Part shown: positions 12,255-19,841 of the stretch, in pieces
Position numbering within the stretch: position 1 is the first letter of the stretch
How the letters are laid out: the number at the start of each line of letters is the position of its first letter
Origin: Tagaea sp. CACIAM 22H2
GTDB taxonomy: Bacteria; Pseudomonadota; Alphaproteobacteria; CACIAM-22H2
Assembly: GCA_014444615.1 (NCBI GenBank)
Contig: PVXE01000011.1
Coordinates: 1 to 64,000 of the forward strand
Length of the DNA: 64,000 nucleotides
Direction: 5' to 3'
Translations under genes and position numbers: made by a program
Notes under the pieces: model-generated
Told to the model about the DNA's origin: nothing
Databases searched by the model: none
Seen by the model: only the letters and a program-made list of their open reading frames with translations

Positions 12255-12901
12255 GCGCCGACCCCGCCGATTTCATCCGTGCGCAAACGCGCCGCGAACA
12301 CCCGTCGCTGGTGCCCGAGCTCGTGCTGCACCTCGCAAGCCGCGCGACCGATTTATGGGAAGCGACCGAAGCGACGCTGGAGCGCACCGGCTTGCCCCCG
12401 CCTTATTGGGCTTTTGCGTGGCCCGGCGGCCAAGCGCTCGCCCGCCTTGCTCTCGATCGGCCCGAAACGGTGCGCGGCAAGCGCGTGCTCGATTTCGCCG
12501 CTGGCAGCGGTGTGGCCGCACTCGCCGCCGCCAAAGCCGGTGCCGCGCACGTGACCGCTTGCGAGATCGACGCCTTCGCCTGCCAAGCGATGGCGCTGAA
12601 CGCCGACGCCAACGGACTGGCGCTCGAGATCCTCGATATCGACGTGCTGGCAAAACCCGCTTCAGGCTGGAACGTGATCTTCGCGGGCGACGTGTTCTAC
12701 GAAAAGCCGATGGCGGACAAGGTCTGGCCCTGGCTCAAAGCGGCGGCCGCGACGGGCGTGCATGTGCTGGTCGCCGATCCGGGCCGCGCCTATCTGCCCG
12801 CCACGGGCCTTACCGAAATCGCGCGCTATACGGTGCCGACCTCGCTCGACCTGGAGGATCGCCTCGCCCGCGAAACCCGGATTCTGGAAGTACGGGTTTA
12901 A
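12251..12901 (+). CDS. Class I SAM-dependent methyltransferase (ETFB lysine methyltransferase-like)
   Basis: A 216-residue methyltransferase. Motif I reads RVLDFAAGSGVAALAAAKAG (about 78-97), followed by a CEID acidic end of strand 2 and a VIFAGDVFYEKPM block characteristic of the Nnt1/METTL20-like group, which methylates protein lysines such as those of electron-transfer flavoprotein. The YWAFAWPGGQALAR N-terminal block supports that group. The start is inferred to be the TTG at 12251, overlapping the ubiA stop as TTGA; no ATG or GTG precedes the conserved region. The target protein cannot be told from sequence. Confidence 0.75.
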   Translation: MSADPADFIRAQTRREHPSLVPELVLHLASRATDLWEATEATLERTGLPPPYWAFAWPGGQALARLALDRPETVRGKRVLDFAAGSGVAALAAAKAGAAHVTACEIDAFACQAMALNADANGLALEILDIDVLAKPASGWNVIFAGDVFYEKPMADKVWPWLKAAAATGVHVLVADPGRAYLPATGLTEIARYTVPTSLDLEDRLARETRILEVRV

Positions 12902-12916
12902 GGCGCTTGAAGAATC

Positions 12917-12932
12917 GTATCTTTTAAGATAC
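12917..12932. promoter_or_regulatory. Palindromic operator candidate of the toxin-antitoxin pair
   Basis: The sequence GTATCTT-TT-AAGATAC is a perfect inverted repeat with 7-base arms and a 2-base centre. It lies 10 bases before the GTG start of the toxin gene, in an AT-rich patch. Type II antitoxins of the HigA kind normally repress their own operon by binding such a site, so this is inferred to be the operator. Confidence 0.55.
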
Positions 12933-12941
12933 AAAATAAGC

Positions 12942-13232
12942 GTGATCGAAATCCGTCAAACGGCGATCTTCGCGAAGTGGTTTGCCAGCCTTCGAGATAG
13001 ACAAGCCCGTGCGCGAATCGCCGTACGGATCGATCGGCTTGCGCTGGGCAATCCCGGCGACGTGAAACCGGTCGGTGCGGGCGTGTCGGAGATCAGAATC
13101 GATAGCGGCCCCGGCTATCGTGTCTATTTCACGCGCCGTGGGGCCGAGATCGTAATCCTGCTGGCGGGCGGCGATAAGTCGACACAAGGCCGCGACATTG
13201 CCCGTGCAAAGGAATTGGCGACGGAGGTTTGA
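12942..13232 (+). CDS. RelE/ParE-family toxin (HigB-like addiction module killer)
   Basis: A 96-residue protein of the addiction-module killer family in the RelE/ParE superfamily. The segment ARIAVRIDRLALGNPGDVKP, then GVSEIRIDSGPGYRVYFTR and a final IVILLAGGDKSTQGRDI, are the family blocks; members cut mRNA on the ribosome or inhibit gyrase. The GTG start at 12942 follows a palindrome. The stop is two bases before the antitoxin ATG, so toxin-first order as in HigBA. The operon follows a chromosomal methyltransferase gene after 40 bases, as would an acquired module. Confidence 0.88.
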   Translation: MIEIRQTAIFAKWFASLRDRQARARIAVRIDRLALGNPGDVKPVGAGVSEIRIDSGPGYRVYFTRRGAEIVILLAGGDKSTQGRDIARAKELATEV

Positions 13233-13234
13233 AC

Positions 13235-13522
13235 ATGGCGAAGGCGAAGATCAAAACCCTGACCTGGGACACCGCCGCGACGTTGCGCGACGATGCCGAT
13301 ATCGCCGCTTATCTCGACGCCGTTCTGGCCGAAAACGATCCCGCCTTGCTGGCGCATGCATTGGGCGTTGCGGCGCGGGCCAAGGGTATGGGCGATATCG
13401 CCAAACGTGCGGGCGTGGGACGCGAGAGCCTCTACAAATCGCTGTCGCGCGACGGCAATCCCAGCTTCGCGACGGTGCAGAAGGTGTTGCAAGCACTCGG
13501 CGTGCGTTTGCGCGCCGCTTAA
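13235..13522 (+). CDS. HigA-like antitoxin (addiction module antidote, HTH)
   Basis: A 95-residue partner of the preceding toxin. It matches the family known as putative addiction module antidote: LRDDADIAAYLDAVLAE near the start and a Cro/C1-type helix-turn-helix (MGDIAKRAGVGRESLYKSLS, about residues 51-70, followed by DGNPSFATVQKVLQALGV). The helix-turn-helix suggests it binds the palindrome upstream of the toxin gene. Its stop TAA overlaps the stop of the convergent DUF4170 gene. Confidence 0.88.
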   Translation: MAKAKIKTLTWDTAATLRDDADIAAYLDAVLAENDPALLAHALGVAARAKGMGDIAKRAGVGRESLYKSLSRDGNPSFATVQKVLQALGVRLRAA

Positions 13523-13923
13523 CCCTCGACGATCCGATAGCGGATCAACGCGTTGTCGATCGTCGCCATCGTGCGCGACTGCCACGCCTTTTTGGCCGTG
13601 TCGTAATCGGCGAAGGGGCCGTGGCGCTCGGGCGCTTTGCCCGTGGCTAGCGCCGTGAAGGTCGCATCGGCGTATTCCGAGCCTTCGACCCACCAAGTTT
13701 TGGCGTTGGCGGCCGCGGCCGGCGCGATCGACGGGCCTTCGCCCACCACGACCTTGAAGCGAGTCAGGGCGTTGTCGATCGTCGCCATGGTGCGCGATTG
13801 CCAGGTGGCGCGCGCTTCCTCGTAGGTCGCGAAGGGCCCATGGATCTCCGCCTTGCCCGGCGCCAAAGCGGTGAAGGTCGCGTCCGCATGCTCGCCGCCT
13901 TCGACCCAGAAACGTGTCGCCAT
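13519..13923 (-). CDS. Tandem DUF4170 protein
   Basis: A 134-residue protein consisting of two copies of the DUF4170 domain, a small alphaproteobacterial domain normally found once per protein. Copy 1 (about 4-60) and copy 2 (about 77-134) share the pattern WVEG.E.ADATFTAL, HGPFA, and an almost identical WQSRTMATIDNAL block. A short Ala/Pro linker joins them. Similarity is also clear at DNA level, so the duplication looks fairly recent. Function is unknown. The ATG at 13923 directly precedes copy 1. Confidence 0.82.
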   Translation of the reverse strand: MATRFWVEGGEHADATFTALAPGKAEIHGPFATYEEARATWQSRTMATIDNALTRFKVVVGEGPSIAPAAAANAKTWWVEGSEYADATFTALATGKAPERHGPFADYDTAKKAWQSRTMATIDNALIRYRIVEG

Positions 13924-14090
13924 CGAAATTCTCCGCTTTGCGTGTTTGGGCGCATCATGCCGGTTTCCGCGCAGGCGTGGAAGCCGGTGCGGCACCGTGG
14001 CACGGGCGCCACAGGATGCGACGGAATCGCGACGGACCCTATGGGGCAATGGCGCGACGCGCTGCGGGCCTTCATATTTGCGGCCGAAAA

Positions 14091-14867
14091 ATGGCCAAGA
14101 CTCGACCCCCGCGCACCGCGACGCCCGAAATCTACGCCGACATCTACAAGATGTTCATGGCGCCCGTGTCCGCTTTCGATTGCGGGGCCAAATGCGCCGC
14201 GCATAACGAGGGTGTGCCCGTTTGCTGCTCGACCGAGGCGGCCATTCCCATCGTAGACAAGCACGAATGGACGCTGCTGAAGAAGCGCACCGATCTTTGG
14301 CACGAATACACCGCCCCCGATAAGGCGACGGAAAAAGAGCTTTCCGACCTGCACCACGATTGCGTGGCGATCGAGTGCAAGGGCTTCATGAGCTGCGAGC
14401 GCGACAACCGCTCGATGTCGTGCCGCACCTTCCCGTTCTTCCCCTATATCGACCGCGACGGCGATTTCCTGGGCATGTCGGTGTTCTGGAATTTCGAGGA
14501 TCGCTGCTGGGTGCAGTCGCATCTGCAGATCGTCAATCTGCGCTTCCTGACTGAGTTCGTCGCGGCCTACGAAATGCTGTTCCAGGTCGACCGCGACGAA
14601 TTCACGGCCAATCGCGACCATTCGGCCAGCATGCGCCGCGTGTTCACGCGCCACGACCGGCCGATCCCGCTGCTGGGCCGCGACGGCCGCGTCTATAAGG
14701 TGCTGCCGACGACGCACGAGATTAAGCCCGCGCGCTTCAACGAATTCGGCCGCTGGGGCTTCTACGAAAACGACAAGCCCGCCGAGCCCGCGAAACACTA
14801 CGCCACACTCGACCCGAATTCGCTGAAGGGCCTGATGCGCGCTTCGTCTAAGGCCGCCGCCGACTAG
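14091..14867 (+). CDS. Cysteine-rich conserved protein, possibly metal-chelating
   Basis: A 258-residue protein without a signal peptide. Eight cysteines cluster in the first 111 residues: C31, C35, C45, C46, C91, C96, C102 and C111. This spacing resembles the zinc/iron-chelating UPF0153 (YkgJ) family but the match is partial. The C-terminal half (VFWNFEDRCWVQSHLQ, EFTANRDHSASMRRVF) has no recognised domain. The ATG at 14091 leaves about 170 bases to the divergent DUF4170 start. It is the last high-GC gene before the AT-rich island. Biochemical role unknown. Confidence 0.7.
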   Translation: MAKTRPPRTATPEIYADIYKMFMAPVSAFDCGAKCAAHNEGVPVCCSTEAAIPIVDKHEWTLLKKRTDLWHEYTAPDKATEKELSDLHHDCVAIECKGFMSCERDNRSMSCRTFPFFPYIDRDGDFLGMSVFWNFEDRCWVQSHLQIVNLRFLTEFVAAYEMLFQVDRDEFTANRDHSASMRRVFTRHDRPIPLLGRDGRVYKVLPTTHEIKPARFNEFGRWGFYENDKPAEPAKHYATLDPNSLKGLMRASSKAAAD

Positions 14868-14877
14868 GCGCTAACGG

Positions 14878-15345
14878 CTATTCAGCCGCAGCCGGCATTG
14901 AAATCTGTTTTGGCGTAAGTGCGAATCCGGCAAGCGCTTCAAGCTGGCTTGAATCTAGCAGGGTCATAAATTGCGGGGGATGGAAGCGCTTGTTTAAGTG
15001 TCGAAGTGCTTCGAGAGATAACGACTTTATAAACCGAGTTGGCTCTTTAAGGCCTATTGCGCTCACAATTTCTCTATTTCCGACATAAGCATCAAACTCT
15101 GATTTTCTAAGGGCGGTGTGAGGACCAAACTGACGCCAAACCGTCGAAGGCGCCGCGGTTTTTACAAAATCAACCGTCGCATATCCTGCCAAATATGCAT
15201 CTGGCGTCGTCACATAGATGAGCAAGATTGATCCGGCAGATAAATTTACTTTTCTAGTGCGGAGCTCCACTGTTTTGGTTCCATTAAAAACAGAATTAGC
15301 AAACCTCCGATGCAGCGAAATTAATGCTCCAACGCGACTAGCCAC
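14878..15345 (-). CDS. ASCH-domain protein (PUA-like fold)
   Basis: A 155-residue protein that is essentially one ASCH domain, a PUA-related fold linked to RNA binding or RNA-modification chemistry. The opening strand ALISLHRRFANSVF is followed by the signature NGTKTVELRTRK (G22, K24, E27, R29), then ILLIYVTTPDAYLAGYATVD and a helical C-terminal part. The start is a GTG whose first eight bases overlap the end of the upstream fusion gene, so the pair is co-translated. The codon use is AT-rich, unlike the flanking genes. Function is unknown; it could act as effector, RNA-sensing partner or antitoxin of the fusion protein. Confidence 0.75.
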   Translation of the reverse strand: MASRVGALISLHRRFANSVFNGTKTVELRTRKVNLSAGSILLIYVTTPDAYLAGYATVDFVKTAAPSTVWRQFGPHTALRKSEFDAYVGNREIVSAIGLKEPTRFIKSLSLEALRHLNKRFHPPQFMTLLDSSQLEALAGFALTPKQISMPAAAE

Positions 15346-17485
15346 GACCGAACCCCAATCGAATTACATTTCTTACAACTTCGCCCGGCACACACTCGGC
15401 GGTGATGTTTTGGGCGCCGCTTACCGCCCCTAGCTCTTTCAACTTTTGAAAACTTACGGGGCGCAGAAACTCTTGAAAGTTATCGAACCCGATAACCCCG
15501 ACCTTTTTGGCGGTATCGCCAGTCTCATATCTATCCAGATCCATTACCCCCTGCCGACGATATTTCTGCTTCGCCACATCTATATCTAAAATCTCATTGA
15601 GCGTCAGACGGGCACAACCAATTGCACTCCCTGAGCCGTGCTGCTTTGCAGTCTCACGAAAAATGATCGGCTGTCCTGCATTTACATCTAGCTTGGCTGC
15701 TCTACGAAAGTAGACCCGTTCTGTCCGAATTCGCGCCGATTGAACTTGCAGCGCGGTCGCCTGTCGAGCTCCCAATAGCTCTTCCGCAAAACCCCGTTTA
15801 ATTGGGATTAAGACGCCGCCGCCAGACCGAAACAAATATAGAACAGGCCCAGTGATGGTTTCAAGATCAAACCATCGAACTGCCCGCCGCTCTCCGGACT
15901 CCGACCGACATTCAGCGTTTTCGCTAGTAGAATTTATTGCCTCAATGGAACTCAGAATGTCTAAGCCCACAGCGGACTTTATCCAGAGCTTAAGTTTGCT
16001 CCATTGCTCTGCCTCAACGAACCCACCGACCACTAATTTTATCAGCTTTAACGAGCCGGCGCTGACCTCCTTGTGGCCGAGACAGCCTCGAGACTTCATA
16101 TGATCAATTGTTGTCTCGTCGCCGCCATAAAGATTCAGCAACACTGCGGTCGGTCGAAGATTGGCCTGCGCAAGCAAATGCGCCAGAAAATGATCAGCCA
16201 CTAACCAAGCATCAGCAGATACATCAAAGAACACTATGTTCCAGACAATATTCTCATGAGCCCCCAACCTGGTGCCCCAGGCGATGGCGCAGGTCCTTCC
16301 ATCACGGCGCGCCTCCAAAAATGTCATTGGTGAAGCAGACGAACACGACCGCAGATCGGCATAGGCTTGAGGCGAAATATTTTCAATTTCAGCGCCGAAG
16401 CGAACCAACTGATCGAAGCGAACCGCCCGAATTTCCAGTCGTGAGCCGCGGTCACGTACAGCCGGAATAAAAGACGAAGAATTCAGATCCACATCAAGTT
16501 CGTCGACAAGATCCGCTGGCGTAACGATGTCGATAGCGAACAGCTTCAATAGCTGATGTCGAGCAGAAATTAATGCACTGTCTCTCGTGACAAAACCCGA
16601 CATTCGCATTTCGATTGCCGCGCCGAGATGACTAAGATCACTGATCTCTTGAACGCGTAATGGTCTCGCTCCATAAAAATCTGGGAATACAATGGGCCCA
16701 AGAGTTGCAATCCAATACTCTTCCCTCGGAGCTGATATAGTCGGCAGCGACGGCAGGGCAGACACCAGAGTCAGCAATGGGTCAGCTCGCAGATTGGAAG
16801 TATTCCTTGCGACTTCTGAATGCATCTCATGAGTCACAAATATGTCAATTTGCCTGGACAACGCGGCTCGAAGAACCTGCAGCGCATTGTCATGGACTTC
16901 GCCTGATCTTCGGAGCGCGTCGAGTAAGACGTTTGTGTCTAGCGCATAGCTACTTAGGTTTGCGCTAGCACGCATTCTGACAAAGCCGATTCCCTCTCCG
17001 GCCGAAGTGTCGCGCAGCGGCGTAAGCAAATCGCTTTGCCCCAAATAAAGTTCTCGCACATTAATTGTGCGCCCACGGCTACTGCCTCCTGGCCGCGTAT
17101 GTATGATCGATAGACCAGACCGCTCCCAAAATGCGTTTGCCTCAAGATCGGCAGCGACATCCGCACGAAGCGTCAAAAAATCGTGCTGCGAAGCGTATAA
17201 TTTAAGTGTGTCAAGCAGTAGCCGGCCGACACCTCTGCGCCGAAAATTTGGAGCGACATTGAGTTGACGAATCTTGATGTGAGGATACGTACCACCGAAC
17301 GCAACGTGCCCAGCATATTGCTTGCCTTCGACAGCGACAAATAGCTGCCCACTACGTGCAAAGTCGTCGTATACGGGCGCCCTTAGAAATCCAAAAGCAT
17401 TTCGATTTTCATCGGCGGCACGCCGAACAACATCGACGTACTCAACAACCAAACGCTTCCCTGTTAATATTTCTATTCCTGGCAT
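15338..17485 (-). CDS. GNAT-PIN-(GNAT-like)-PUA/ASCH-like multidomain protein
   Basis: A 715-residue protein with at least three recognisable domains. Residues about 35-150 form a GNAT N-acetyltransferase with acetyl-CoA loop RRRGVGRLLLDTL (82-94). Residues about 178-325 form a PIN ribonuclease: SSYALDTNVLLDALR with D183, then E220/E224, D283 and D302 in VTRDSAL, giving the acidic quartet expected of an active enzyme. Residues 350-490 have strand-helix order like a degenerate second GNAT. Residues about 540-715 resemble a PUA/ASCH-type RNA-binding domain (VLIPIKRGFAEELL, VYFRR, GSAIGCARLTLNEI). The gene is AT-rich relative to its surroundings and precedes a single-domain ASCH gene in one operon. 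The domain calls are by eye; the middle and C-terminal ones are the weakest. A defence or toxin-antitoxin role is inference. Confidence 0.75.
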   Translation of the reverse strand: MPGIEILTGKRLVVEYVDVVRRAADENRNAFGFLRAPVYDDFARSGQLFVAVEGKQYAGHVAFGGTYPHIKIRQLNVAPNFRRRGVGRLLLDTLKLYASQHDFLTLRADVAADLEANAFWERSGLSIIHTRPGGSSRGRTINVRELYLGQSDLLTPLRDTSAGEGIGFVRMRASANLSSYALDTNVLLDALRRSGEVHDNALQVLRAALSRQIDIFVTHEMHSEVARNTSNLRADPLLTLVSALPSLPTISAPREEYWIATLGPIVFPDFYGARPLRVQEISDLSHLGAAIEMRMSGFVTRDSALISARHQLLKLFAIDIVTPADLVDELDVDLNSSSFIPAVRDRGSRLEIRAVRFDQLVRFGAEIENISPQAYADLRSCSSASPMTFLEARRDGRTCAIAWGTRLGAHENIVWNIVFFDVSADAWLVADHFLAHLLAQANLRPTAVLLNLYGGDETTIDHMKSRGCLGHKEVSAGSLKLIKLVVGGFVEAEQWSKLKLWIKSAVGLDILSSIEAINSTSENAECRSESGERRAVRWFDLETITGPVLYLFRSGGGVLIPIKRGFAEELLGARQATALQVQSARIRTERVYFRRAAKLDVNAGQPIIFRETAKQHGSGSAIGCARLTLNEILDIDVAKQKYRRQGVMDLDRYETGDTAKKVGVIGFDNFQEFLRPVSFQKLKELGAVSGAQNITAECVPGEVVRNVIRLGFGRG

Positions 17486-17487
17486 CT

Positions 17488-17504
17488 AAAACACACTATG
17501 TTTT
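17488..17504. promoter_or_regulatory. Inverted repeat in the leader of the GNAT-PIN operon
   Basis: AAAACA and TGTTTT arms flank a 5-base centre just two bases upstream of the ATG at 17485. A TATAGT-like -10 element on the minus strand lies at 17516-17521. The repeat is placed where a repressor or the translation machinery could act, but it is short and AT-rich, so chance is possible. Confidence 0.3.
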
Positions 17505-17575
17505 GACGCTAGACCACTATAAATTAACAACGAGTGGAAGCGAAATTTGCGGCTAAAACAATAAACGTTGAAGCC

Positions 17576-18274
17576 TCAAAGAAAATAAAACGTCCCGAGG
17601 ATCAGCCAGCGCGCCGCCGAAGCCTTGCCTTCGAGCGGCGTGGTGTAATGCCAAAAGGGCAAGCGATAGGCGGAGACGAGGCCGGGCACGGCCACATGCA
17701 CCGTTTCGCTGAGATGGCCGTCCTTGGCGTAGACCAGCAATTGGCGCGTGGCCCCACCGCCGACGAACGACAGATGCAGATCGAAATAGCCGTCTTTCGC
17801 GCCGGGATCTTCCGGGTGGTGGTCGGTATGCGGGCCCGAATAATCGCCGGGCCCGTAGCGCAATGCTTGCCGGCCGAAGCCGCGCGTCAGCTTGCGCCCC
17901 GCCAGCGCCTCGGCGAAATCGCGGAAGCTTGGTGACAGCAGCATCGCCTCAAGTCCCGTCACGCGCGCGGCGTCGCGCGCCTTGCCGCGTGAGGCGTCGA
18001 GATCGGCCGTGCGCACGCGCACGGTCTTGGGCAGGCGTTCCTGATAATTGCGCGTCTGGTTGAGGATCGATTCGGGCGGGATCGTCCGTTCCATCGGCTT
18101 CACGACCGGACCCAACGCGCGCTCCAATAACGCAAACGCCGCCTTGGCTTTGGCGGGCGCCAGCAAGTCGGGCCGCGCCAGAAACGGCTCGGCGCGCAAT
18201 GTCAGTTTCCCGTCCAGCACGCGGCGGCCGACGGGGCTCAACATTTCACGGAATTCGGCGGGGAAACGATCCAT
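17576..18274 (-). CDS. 2-oxoglutarate-Fe(II) oxygenase-like protein
   Basis: A 232-residue protein with the double-stranded beta-helix signature of Fe(II)/2OG dioxygenases. LRYGPGDYSGPHTDHHPED supplies the iron ligands H149 and D151, LPFWHYTTPL the distal H209, and R222 in ARWLILGTF the 2OG-binding arginine. The first 110 residues are helical and not recognised. The substrate is unknown. The gene ends exactly where the AT-rich island begins and its own composition is high-GC, like ubiD on the other side. Confidence 0.78.
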   Translation of the reverse strand: MDRFPAEFREMLSPVGRRVLDGKLTLRAEPFLARPDLLAPAKAKAAFALLERALGPVVKPMERTIPPESILNQTRNYQERLPKTVRVRTADLDASRGKARDAARVTGLEAMLLSPSFRDFAEALAGRKLTRGFGRQALRYGPGDYSGPHTDHHPEDPGAKDGYFDLHLSFVGGGATRQLLVYAKDGHLSETVHVAVPGLVSAYRLPFWHYTTPLEGKASAARWLILGTFYFL

Positions 18275-18323
18275 CCAGGCCCTATAGCAGAAACCGCCGG
18301 GCCCGCCCTATAGTCCCTGCGTC

Positions 18324-19841
18324 ATGCCCTACGCCTCGCTCCGCGACTTCATCCAACGCCTCGAAAACACCGGACGGCTCGTCCGGGTCAAGGAACCGGT
18401 TTCGACCGTTCTGGAGATGACCGAGATCCAGACCCGGCTTCTGGCTGAGGGCGGACCGGCGGTGATTTTCGAGAAGCCGATCCGCGCCGACGGCACGGTC
18501 TCGCCGATCCCTGTGCTGGTCAATCTTTTCGGCACGGTCGAGCGCGTCGCCTGGGGCATGGATCGCGAGCCGCATCAGCTCAAAGAAGTCGGCGAGACGC
18601 TCGCCTTTCTGCGCCAGCCGCAGCCGCCCGAGGGCTGGCGCGAGGCGCTGGAACTCGTCCCCCTCGCCAAGACCGTGCTGGCAATGAAGCCCGGCACCAA
18701 GATGTTCGGCGCGGCGCCGTGCCAAGAGGTGGTGCTGACCGGCGATCAGATCGACCTCGCCCAATTGCCGATCCAAAGCTGCTGGCCGGGCGAACCCGCC
18801 CCACTGATCACGTGGCCGCTGGTCGTGACCAAGGGCCCGAGCGGGGCGCGCGAGGACAAGTTCAATCTCGGCATCTACCGCATGCAGGTGACGGGCAAGA
18901 ACACGACGCTGATGCGCTGGCTCAAACATCGCGGCGGCGCGCAGCAGCATCAGCGCTGGGCGAAATCGGGCAAGCCGGAGCCCTTCCCCGCCGCCGTCGT
19001 GCTGGGGGCCGATCCCGGCACGATCCTGGCGGCCGTAACGCCCGTACCCGAAACGCTGAGCGAATATCAATTCGCCGGCCTGCTGCGCGGCAAGCGCGTC
19101 GAGCTCGTCGACTGCAAAACCGTGCCGCTGAAAGTGCCCGCCGAAGCCGAGATCGTGATCGAAGGTCATGTCAGCCTCGACGATTACGGCGACGAAGGCC
19201 CGTACGGCGACCACACCGGCTATTATAATTCGGTCGAAAAATTTCCGGTGTTCACGGTCAGCGCCATTACGATGCGCCGCGATCCGATTTACCTCTCGAC
19301 CTTCACCGGTCGCCCGCCGGACGAGCCCTCGGTGCTGGGCGAAGCGCTGAACGACGTGTTCGTGCCGCTGCTGCGCCAGCAATTCCCCGAGATCGTCGAT
19401 TTCTGGCTGCCGCCCGAAGGCTGTTCCTATCGCATCGCCGTCGTGTCGATGAAGAAGGCCTATCCCGGCCACGCCAAGCGCGTGATGATGGGCGTGTGGT
19501 CGTATTTGCGCCAATTCATGTACACGAAATGGGTGATCGTCGTGGACGACGACATCAACGCGCGCGACTGGAAGGATGTGATGTGGGCGATGTCCACGCG
19601 CATGGACCCCGCGCGCGACATTACCTTGGTCGAGGGCACGCCGATCGACTATCTGGATTTCGCCAGCCCCGAAAGCGGGTTGGGGTCCAAGATCGGTCTC
19701 GACGCGACCGATAAATGGCCGCCGGAAACCAAGCGCGAATGGGGCGTGAAGCTGCGCATGGACGACGCGACCGTCGCCAAGGTCGACGCGATGTGGTCGA
19801 AGCTGGGCCTGCCCGGCAGCGGTAAGAAAATCTGGAAGTGA
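18324..19841 (+). CDS. ubiD: UbiD-family decarboxylase
   Basis: A 505-residue prenylated-FMN-dependent decarboxylase, in ubiquinone synthesis acting on 3-polyprenyl-4-hydroxybenzoate. Characteristic blocks are [18 protein letters not shown] at the N-terminus, [20 protein letters not shown] (split across the substrate region), and the [16 protein letters not shown] active-site segment with the conserved glutamates, then [17 protein letters not shown]. Length matches the family. No ubiX flavin prenyltransferase was seen nearby. The gene overlaps the next by GTGA. Confidence 0.95.

Follow-up and report, generated by a model that had tools for sequence, protein, structure and literature searches.

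What kind of system is encoded by two overlapping, AT-rich genes that lie among otherwise ordinary genes of Tagaea sp. CACIAM 22H2, and is it new? The window that we analysed (64,000 nt; contig PVXE01000011.1, positions 1 to 64,000) had been given a first-pass annotation, made from the letters of the sequence, that proposed an RNA-targeting defence or toxin–antitoxin (TA) module at this locus. Gene A (15338-17485, minus strand, ATG start) encodes a 715-aa protein with a predicted N-terminal GNAT, a PIN nuclease domain, a degenerate GNAT and an EVE-like end, and gene B (14878-15345, minus strand, GTG start) encodes a 155-aa ASCH protein of the PDC-M11B/ZmASCH family. The annotation was right about the layout, as the two open reading frames overlap by 8 bases (15338-15345), and about the composition, with a GC content of 0.503 for the pair (0.511 for A and 0.468 for B) against 0.66 in the remaining window. 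Promoter and terminator scans of the cassette stayed at chance level. We take A and B to be a translationally coupled two-gene module, as part of the broader and, in our view, probable reading of the locus as a conflict module.

The pair occupies a cassette of 14868..17575 (no strand assigned), flanked by the stop codons of two chromosomal genes that converge on it, 13914-14867 on the plus strand and 17576-18274 on the minus strand. An empty site had been suggested as a check, and one is present in several relatives from the same genus. In G665, whose UbiD neighbour is 96% identical, the flanks at 14842 and 17583 are joined with about 13 bp in between, and G667, G668 and G669 also lack the cassette; with at least four relatives showing the empty site, the pair must be an insertion. 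G664 has only approximately 250 bp at this position and G128 an unrelated hydrolase gene. Most genus relatives do without the pair, which was found in 2 of the 11 genomes of the genus. In G670 the site is filled: a homologous pair (A, 722 aa and 43% identical; B, 151 aa and 54% identical) lies between the stop codons of these convergent genes, and the G670 cassette is AT-rich too (GC 0.519 versus 0.636). In the tree, the A proteins of the window and of G670 group as sisters with full support, which leaves either an old cassette that diverged fast and was lost several times, or two related cassettes that entered one site. Neither target-site repeats nor an integrase was found at the cassette borders. 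Patchy distribution, AT-richness and empty sites establish that the cassette is horizontally acquired and mobile. These observations weigh on the notion of a housekeeping RNA-processing or regulatory pair with no conflict role: ASCH, PUA and GNAT domains are common in RNA metabolism and the window neighbours are ordinary chromosomal genes, but such a role is hardly credible for genes of foreign composition with empty sites, confined to 2 of 11 genomes in the genus and 4 of 385 genomes in a class-wide sample. A second variable spot lies beside the island: L044 (4263-5486) and L051 (3069-4286) carry a gene for a protein of approximately 406 aa between 2OG-oxygenase-like and UbiD-like genes, which is missing from the window (18274 to 18324).

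The HigBA-type pair noticed nearby in the first-pass annotation is real (12888-13522, plus strand; HI1419-HI1420 type, with TIGR02683 and TIGR02684 matches). It has no counterpart in G665 and G667 and is hence an insertion separate from the cassette, so its proximity provides no evidence for the function of A and B, and we rejected it as a part of their system. When the remaining window genes were scanned with PADLOC, no recognisable defence island emerged; matches such as mad3/mad8 and AriA fell among ordinary window genes, and we did not treat them as evidence for defence. A minus-strand gene at 13519-14049 encodes a protein in which DUF4170 occurs twice; relatives show this tandem duplication as internal repeats.

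Protein A was dissected using Pfam, AlphaFold2 (AF2) and Foldseek. The N-terminal GNAT (residues 1-148; 17042..17485, minus strand) has an acetyl-CoA loop, R82-R-R-G85-V-G87, and a Pfam GNAT match (PF00583, residues 37-124, E 4e-10). It is followed by a PIN nuclease domain (residues 179-331; 16493..16951, minus strand) with a match to PIN_3 (PF13470, residues 182-303, E 1.6e-6) and the acidic residues D183, E220, E224, D283 and D302. The remainder, residues 345-715, has no Pfam match; here we place a core GNAT-like domain that has lost its acetyl-CoA loop (residues 350-485; 16031..16438, minus strand) and a C-terminal EVE/ASCH-like domain of the PUA superfamily (about residues 523-715; 15341..15919, minus strand). 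The AF2 model, built from a 21-sequence alignment (pLDDT 75; pTM 0.51, so that the interdomain arrangement is uncertain), shows GNAT-like strand/helix order at 1-148 and again at 350-485; residues 179-331 are PIN-like, and the end, approximately 523-715, is beta-rich. Foldseek, whose output gives no residue ranges per match, returned GNATs of the Ard1/RimI/Naa50 type and the ASCH structure ZmASCH; we place the latter at the C-terminal domain, the rest of A being accounted for by the PIN domain and the two GNATs. The PIN and GNAT folds anticipated in the first-pass annotation are thus both found, and its N-terminal acetyltransferase with a loop and its complete PIN acidic set stand as described. 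The second GNAT-like segment and the PUA/ASCH-like end that it had sketched also hold in outline, and can now be specified as the degenerate core GNAT and the EVE-like domain of the PIN-GNAT-EVE family.

That family, (PIN)-GNAT-EVE proteins with paired ASCH proteins, was described by Bell, Wolf & Koonin (2020, PMC7641849) as putative TA or defence operons, none of them characterised, and PADLOC already lists homologues (PDC-M11A/B) as defence/TA candidates. Residues 170-715 of A align colinearly and end to end with PIN-GNAT-EVE proteins (485 columns, P 7e-22), pairing PIN with PIN, A 345-500 with the family GNAT and A 500-715 with the EVE end. The C-terminal end of A matches the EVE end of PDC-M11A-type proteins in hhalign (P 3e-12), and a plain A-family HMM finds PIN-GNAT-EVE proteins directly (E 2.5e-14). 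The PADLOC PDC-M11A profile, on the other hand, matches A only at residues 182-263 (E 1.5e-4), and a search with that profile at E 1e-6 did not find the window genome; for want of a full-length match, A was filed as a variant rather than a standard member. A and B share with the classic systems the domain order (A 170-715), the PIN acidic set, the paired ASCH gene and a mobile distribution, perhaps with a partial link to defence genes. They differ in the extra N-terminal GNAT of approximately 150 aa, in the core GNAT without an acetyl-CoA loop, in the length of A (about 715 aa against about 350-530 aa) and in the position of the ASCH gene, which is downstream in all variant relatives examined and upstream in several classic loci. 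Judged by these comparisons, A/B is an architectural variant of a known candidate system and not categorically new; the novelty lies in the four-domain architecture, of which we found no description in the literature covered, Iyer et al. 2013 lying outside it. A standard PIN-GNAT-EVE and ASCH pair, with the ASCH gene upstream, is present instead of the four-domain variant in G128 from the same genus (C42:38359-40270, L088).

How far the active sites have been retained was assessed on the window protein together with 28 relatives, 29 sequences in all. In the PIN domain, D183, N185, E220, E224, S282, D283 and T300 are invariant in all 29, and residue 302 is either D or E. In the core GNAT, the R-G-x-K-L-G-E-type acetyl-CoA loop is gone in all 29, while the N-terminal GNAT has a loop resembling R-x-x-G/x-[VIL]-[GAS] that is eroded in some members. 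The comparison set comprised the standard members L028, L029, L030, L085, L086, L088 and L089 and the GNAT-EVE members L024 and L026; the core loop is present in six of these nine, the pattern used having failed to detect it in L085, L088 and L089. Pfam GNAT matches in the core of standard members lie above the curated cut-off for L086 and L088 and near it for L085 and L028; in the variant, the Pfam match is confined to the N-terminus, with none in the core. The simplest reading of these patterns is that the core GNAT kept its fold, perhaps as a scaffold or sensor, after its site decayed and that the second GNAT took over catalysis. The acetyltransferase of this widespread candidate defence family can, it seems, leave its original position, with an added domain supplying the activity. 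If true, acetyl transfer would be essential to how PIN-GNAT-EVE-type systems work.

Protein B is an ASCH protein, as first proposed (Pfam ASCH, E 3.6e-4), and matches PADLOC PDC-M11B with E 1e-19. Its family profile matches the crystallised ZmASCH of Zymomonas mobilis (PDB 5GUQ, 5GUS, 5Y6B and 5Y6C) with E 7e-39; the homology extends over the whole length and the fold is the same (TM 0.8-0.9), with THYN1 and TRIP4 structures also among the fold matches. The ASCH partner of the family is thereby tied to a protein for which crystal structures and RNA-cleavage data exist. ZmASCH is a nucleic-acid binder that cuts ssRNA weakly; Y47, K53 and S128 contribute, and their mutation lowered binding or activity (PMC5615036). 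By manual alignment, Y47 corresponds to a conserved Y44 in B, whereas K53 and S128 are replaced by A50 and F126 and are not conserved, so B need not be a nuclease. We conclude that B is probably an RNA binder whose catalytic ability is uncertain. A class-wide search aimed at an A-type partner beside Z. mobilis ZmASCH returned no near-identical match. We also considered B as an N4-acetylcytidine deacetylase. The YqfB-type amidohydrolases have the same ASCH fold and use a Thr nucleophile in a Thr-Lys-Glu triad (PMC6972931); of their K-x-x-T-x-R motif, B keeps the Lys and Arg (K24 and R29), but a manual motif alignment places E27, invariant in our alignment, at the catalytic Thr24, and with the nucleophile replaced by Glu this candidate was rejected.

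Relatives of A were collected from named genomes. A scan of genome contigs with the single protein found none, while a three-sequence profile recovered 22 further relatives; an alignment of nine sequences proved too diverse to be used in pattern scans. The relatives span Alphaproteobacteria to Bacteroidota, their hosts including Rhodospirillales, Azospirillum, Thalassospira, Caulobacter, Brevundimonas, Bradyrhizobium, Rhodoplanes, Sphingomonas and Desulfosarcina, and plasmid searches yielded Caulobacter and Prevotella copies. In nearly all of them, A has a lower GC content than the sequence around it. The ASCH gene follows A wherever the contig continues, with overlaps of 4 to 130 bases as judged from longest-ORF start calls; the exceptions are L022, with a 2-base gap, and L070, in which the A reading frame is broken. 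The latter, from Rhodospirillales bacterium HXMU1429-12 (L070:9965-11522), has A split into two reading frames beside an intact B and is possibly a decaying copy.

Neighbourhoods of the homologues gave a mixed answer to the expectation that they would lie in defence islands with a conserved ASCH partner: the pairing is conserved, while type IIG/PglX-like genes adjoin some copies only and no defence genes surround the window copy. L060 has a PglX/type IIG-like methyltransferase directly upstream, preceded by a Snf2/PLD-type helicase, L003 has a IIG-like gene upstream and L073 one just downstream. Clear defence neighbours are found in a minority of relatives only, several of their large neighbour genes having no PADLOC match, and the association of the family with defence genes is no more than suggestive. 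The same methyltransferases could be taken to mean that the pair is an accessory to DNA modification or restriction, in which the GNAT has a DNA base as its acetylation substrate (a proposal of Iyer et al., cited in PMC7641849) and the EVE and ASCH domains read modified DNA in aid of a neighbouring restriction system; EVE/ASCH relatives, including the THYN1 and TRIP4 found among our matches, do bind DNA or modified DNA. We regard this as improbable, given that all 29 sequences keep an intact PIN domain, a domain type that mostly cuts RNA, that the window copy has no restriction system nearby, and that ZmASCH, the closest relative of B with a solved structure, cleaves ssRNA only.

A link to phages bears on another possibility raised in PMC7641849, where GNAT-EVE proteins are reported from prophages and PIN-GNAT-EVE proteins near host defence genes: the system might be a counter-measure that degrades toxic acetylated aminoacyl-tRNAs made by phage GNAT-EVE proteins. 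B does match a phage protein family (phrog_3136, E 2e-20). Viral contig scans and a phage tblastn search, however, found no relative of the full variant in phage and viral collections, the matches of a Foldseek search against viral models were mostly proteins of GNAT size, and an extra GNAT that looks live would serve no purpose, or do harm, in a protein that only detoxifies. We give this idea slightly less credit still than a role at the level of DNA.

Rather better placed, though still unlikely, is a type II-like TA addiction module with A as the toxin and B as its direct protein antitoxin, serving plasmid or island maintenance over defence. Overlapping co-directional genes and a mobile distribution fit it well, PIN and GNAT are common toxin folds, the Caulobacter copy is plasmid-borne and the family has been called putative TA (PMC7641849). 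However, at about 700 aa and four domains A is far above the usual size of a toxin, B has no DNA-binding antitoxin domain, and the ASCH gene of the classic family can precede the effector gene, follow it or be fused with it, an unusual range of arrangements for a labile antitoxin. TacT, KacT and AtaT resemble A in placing a GNAT in a putative conflict module, but they pair with RHH antitoxins, whereas the partner of A is an ASCH protein and no RHH antitoxin is present; moreover, in A the GNAT is fused to PIN and EVE domains, and the closest fold matches of the N-terminal GNAT are the protein N-acetyltransferases Ard1, RimI and Naa50, not tRNA-acetylating toxins. VapBC shares with A a PIN ribonuclease domain with a D-E-D-D type acidic set; there is, however, no VapB antitoxin here, and the PIN domain is internal to a 715-aa protein.

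We therefore favour, as probable, the reading of A/B as a mobile, RNA-targeting conflict module, anti-phage or TA-like, derived from the PIN-GNAT-EVE and ASCH (PDC-M11) family. A would be the effector, a metal-dependent PIN endoribonuclease, with RNA as its likely target by analogy with PIN families generally. Its EVE-like end, helped by B, may guide it to particular, probably modified, RNA. Acetyl transfer, presumably performed by the core GNAT in classic proteins, would have moved to the added N-terminal GNAT, whose substrate could be RNA, aminoacyl-tRNA or a protein, leaving the core GNAT as a structural or acyl-CoA-dead domain. B would bind RNA and act with A as a sensor or a restraint, the first-pass annotation having proposed a sensor or antidote. 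On a trigger such as phage infection or altered tRNA, the module would acetylate and cut RNA and growth would stop, with defence or addiction as the presumed purpose. In a more elaborate version, which we think has a low chance of being correct, the single polypeptide would perform RNA-level restriction-modification: the N-terminal GNAT would acetylate self RNA (or charged tRNA), a mark recognised by the EVE-like and ASCH domains; the core GNAT, being acyl-CoA-dead, would sense this mark or acyl-CoA; and RNA that is unmarked, or marked wrongly, would be cut by the PIN domain in infection.

Two standard loci show further arrangements of the ASCH partner. At L028 (8181-9158), an ASCH protein beside a standard PIN-GNAT-EVE gene has, by eye, a C-terminal P-loop kinase/AAA-like segment, in a neighbourhood that looks HsdS-like and restriction-related. 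At L029 (1234-3150), PIN, GNAT, EVE-like and ASCH parts are fused in a single 638-aa protein, an arrangement that points to joint action of the effector and its ASCH partner.
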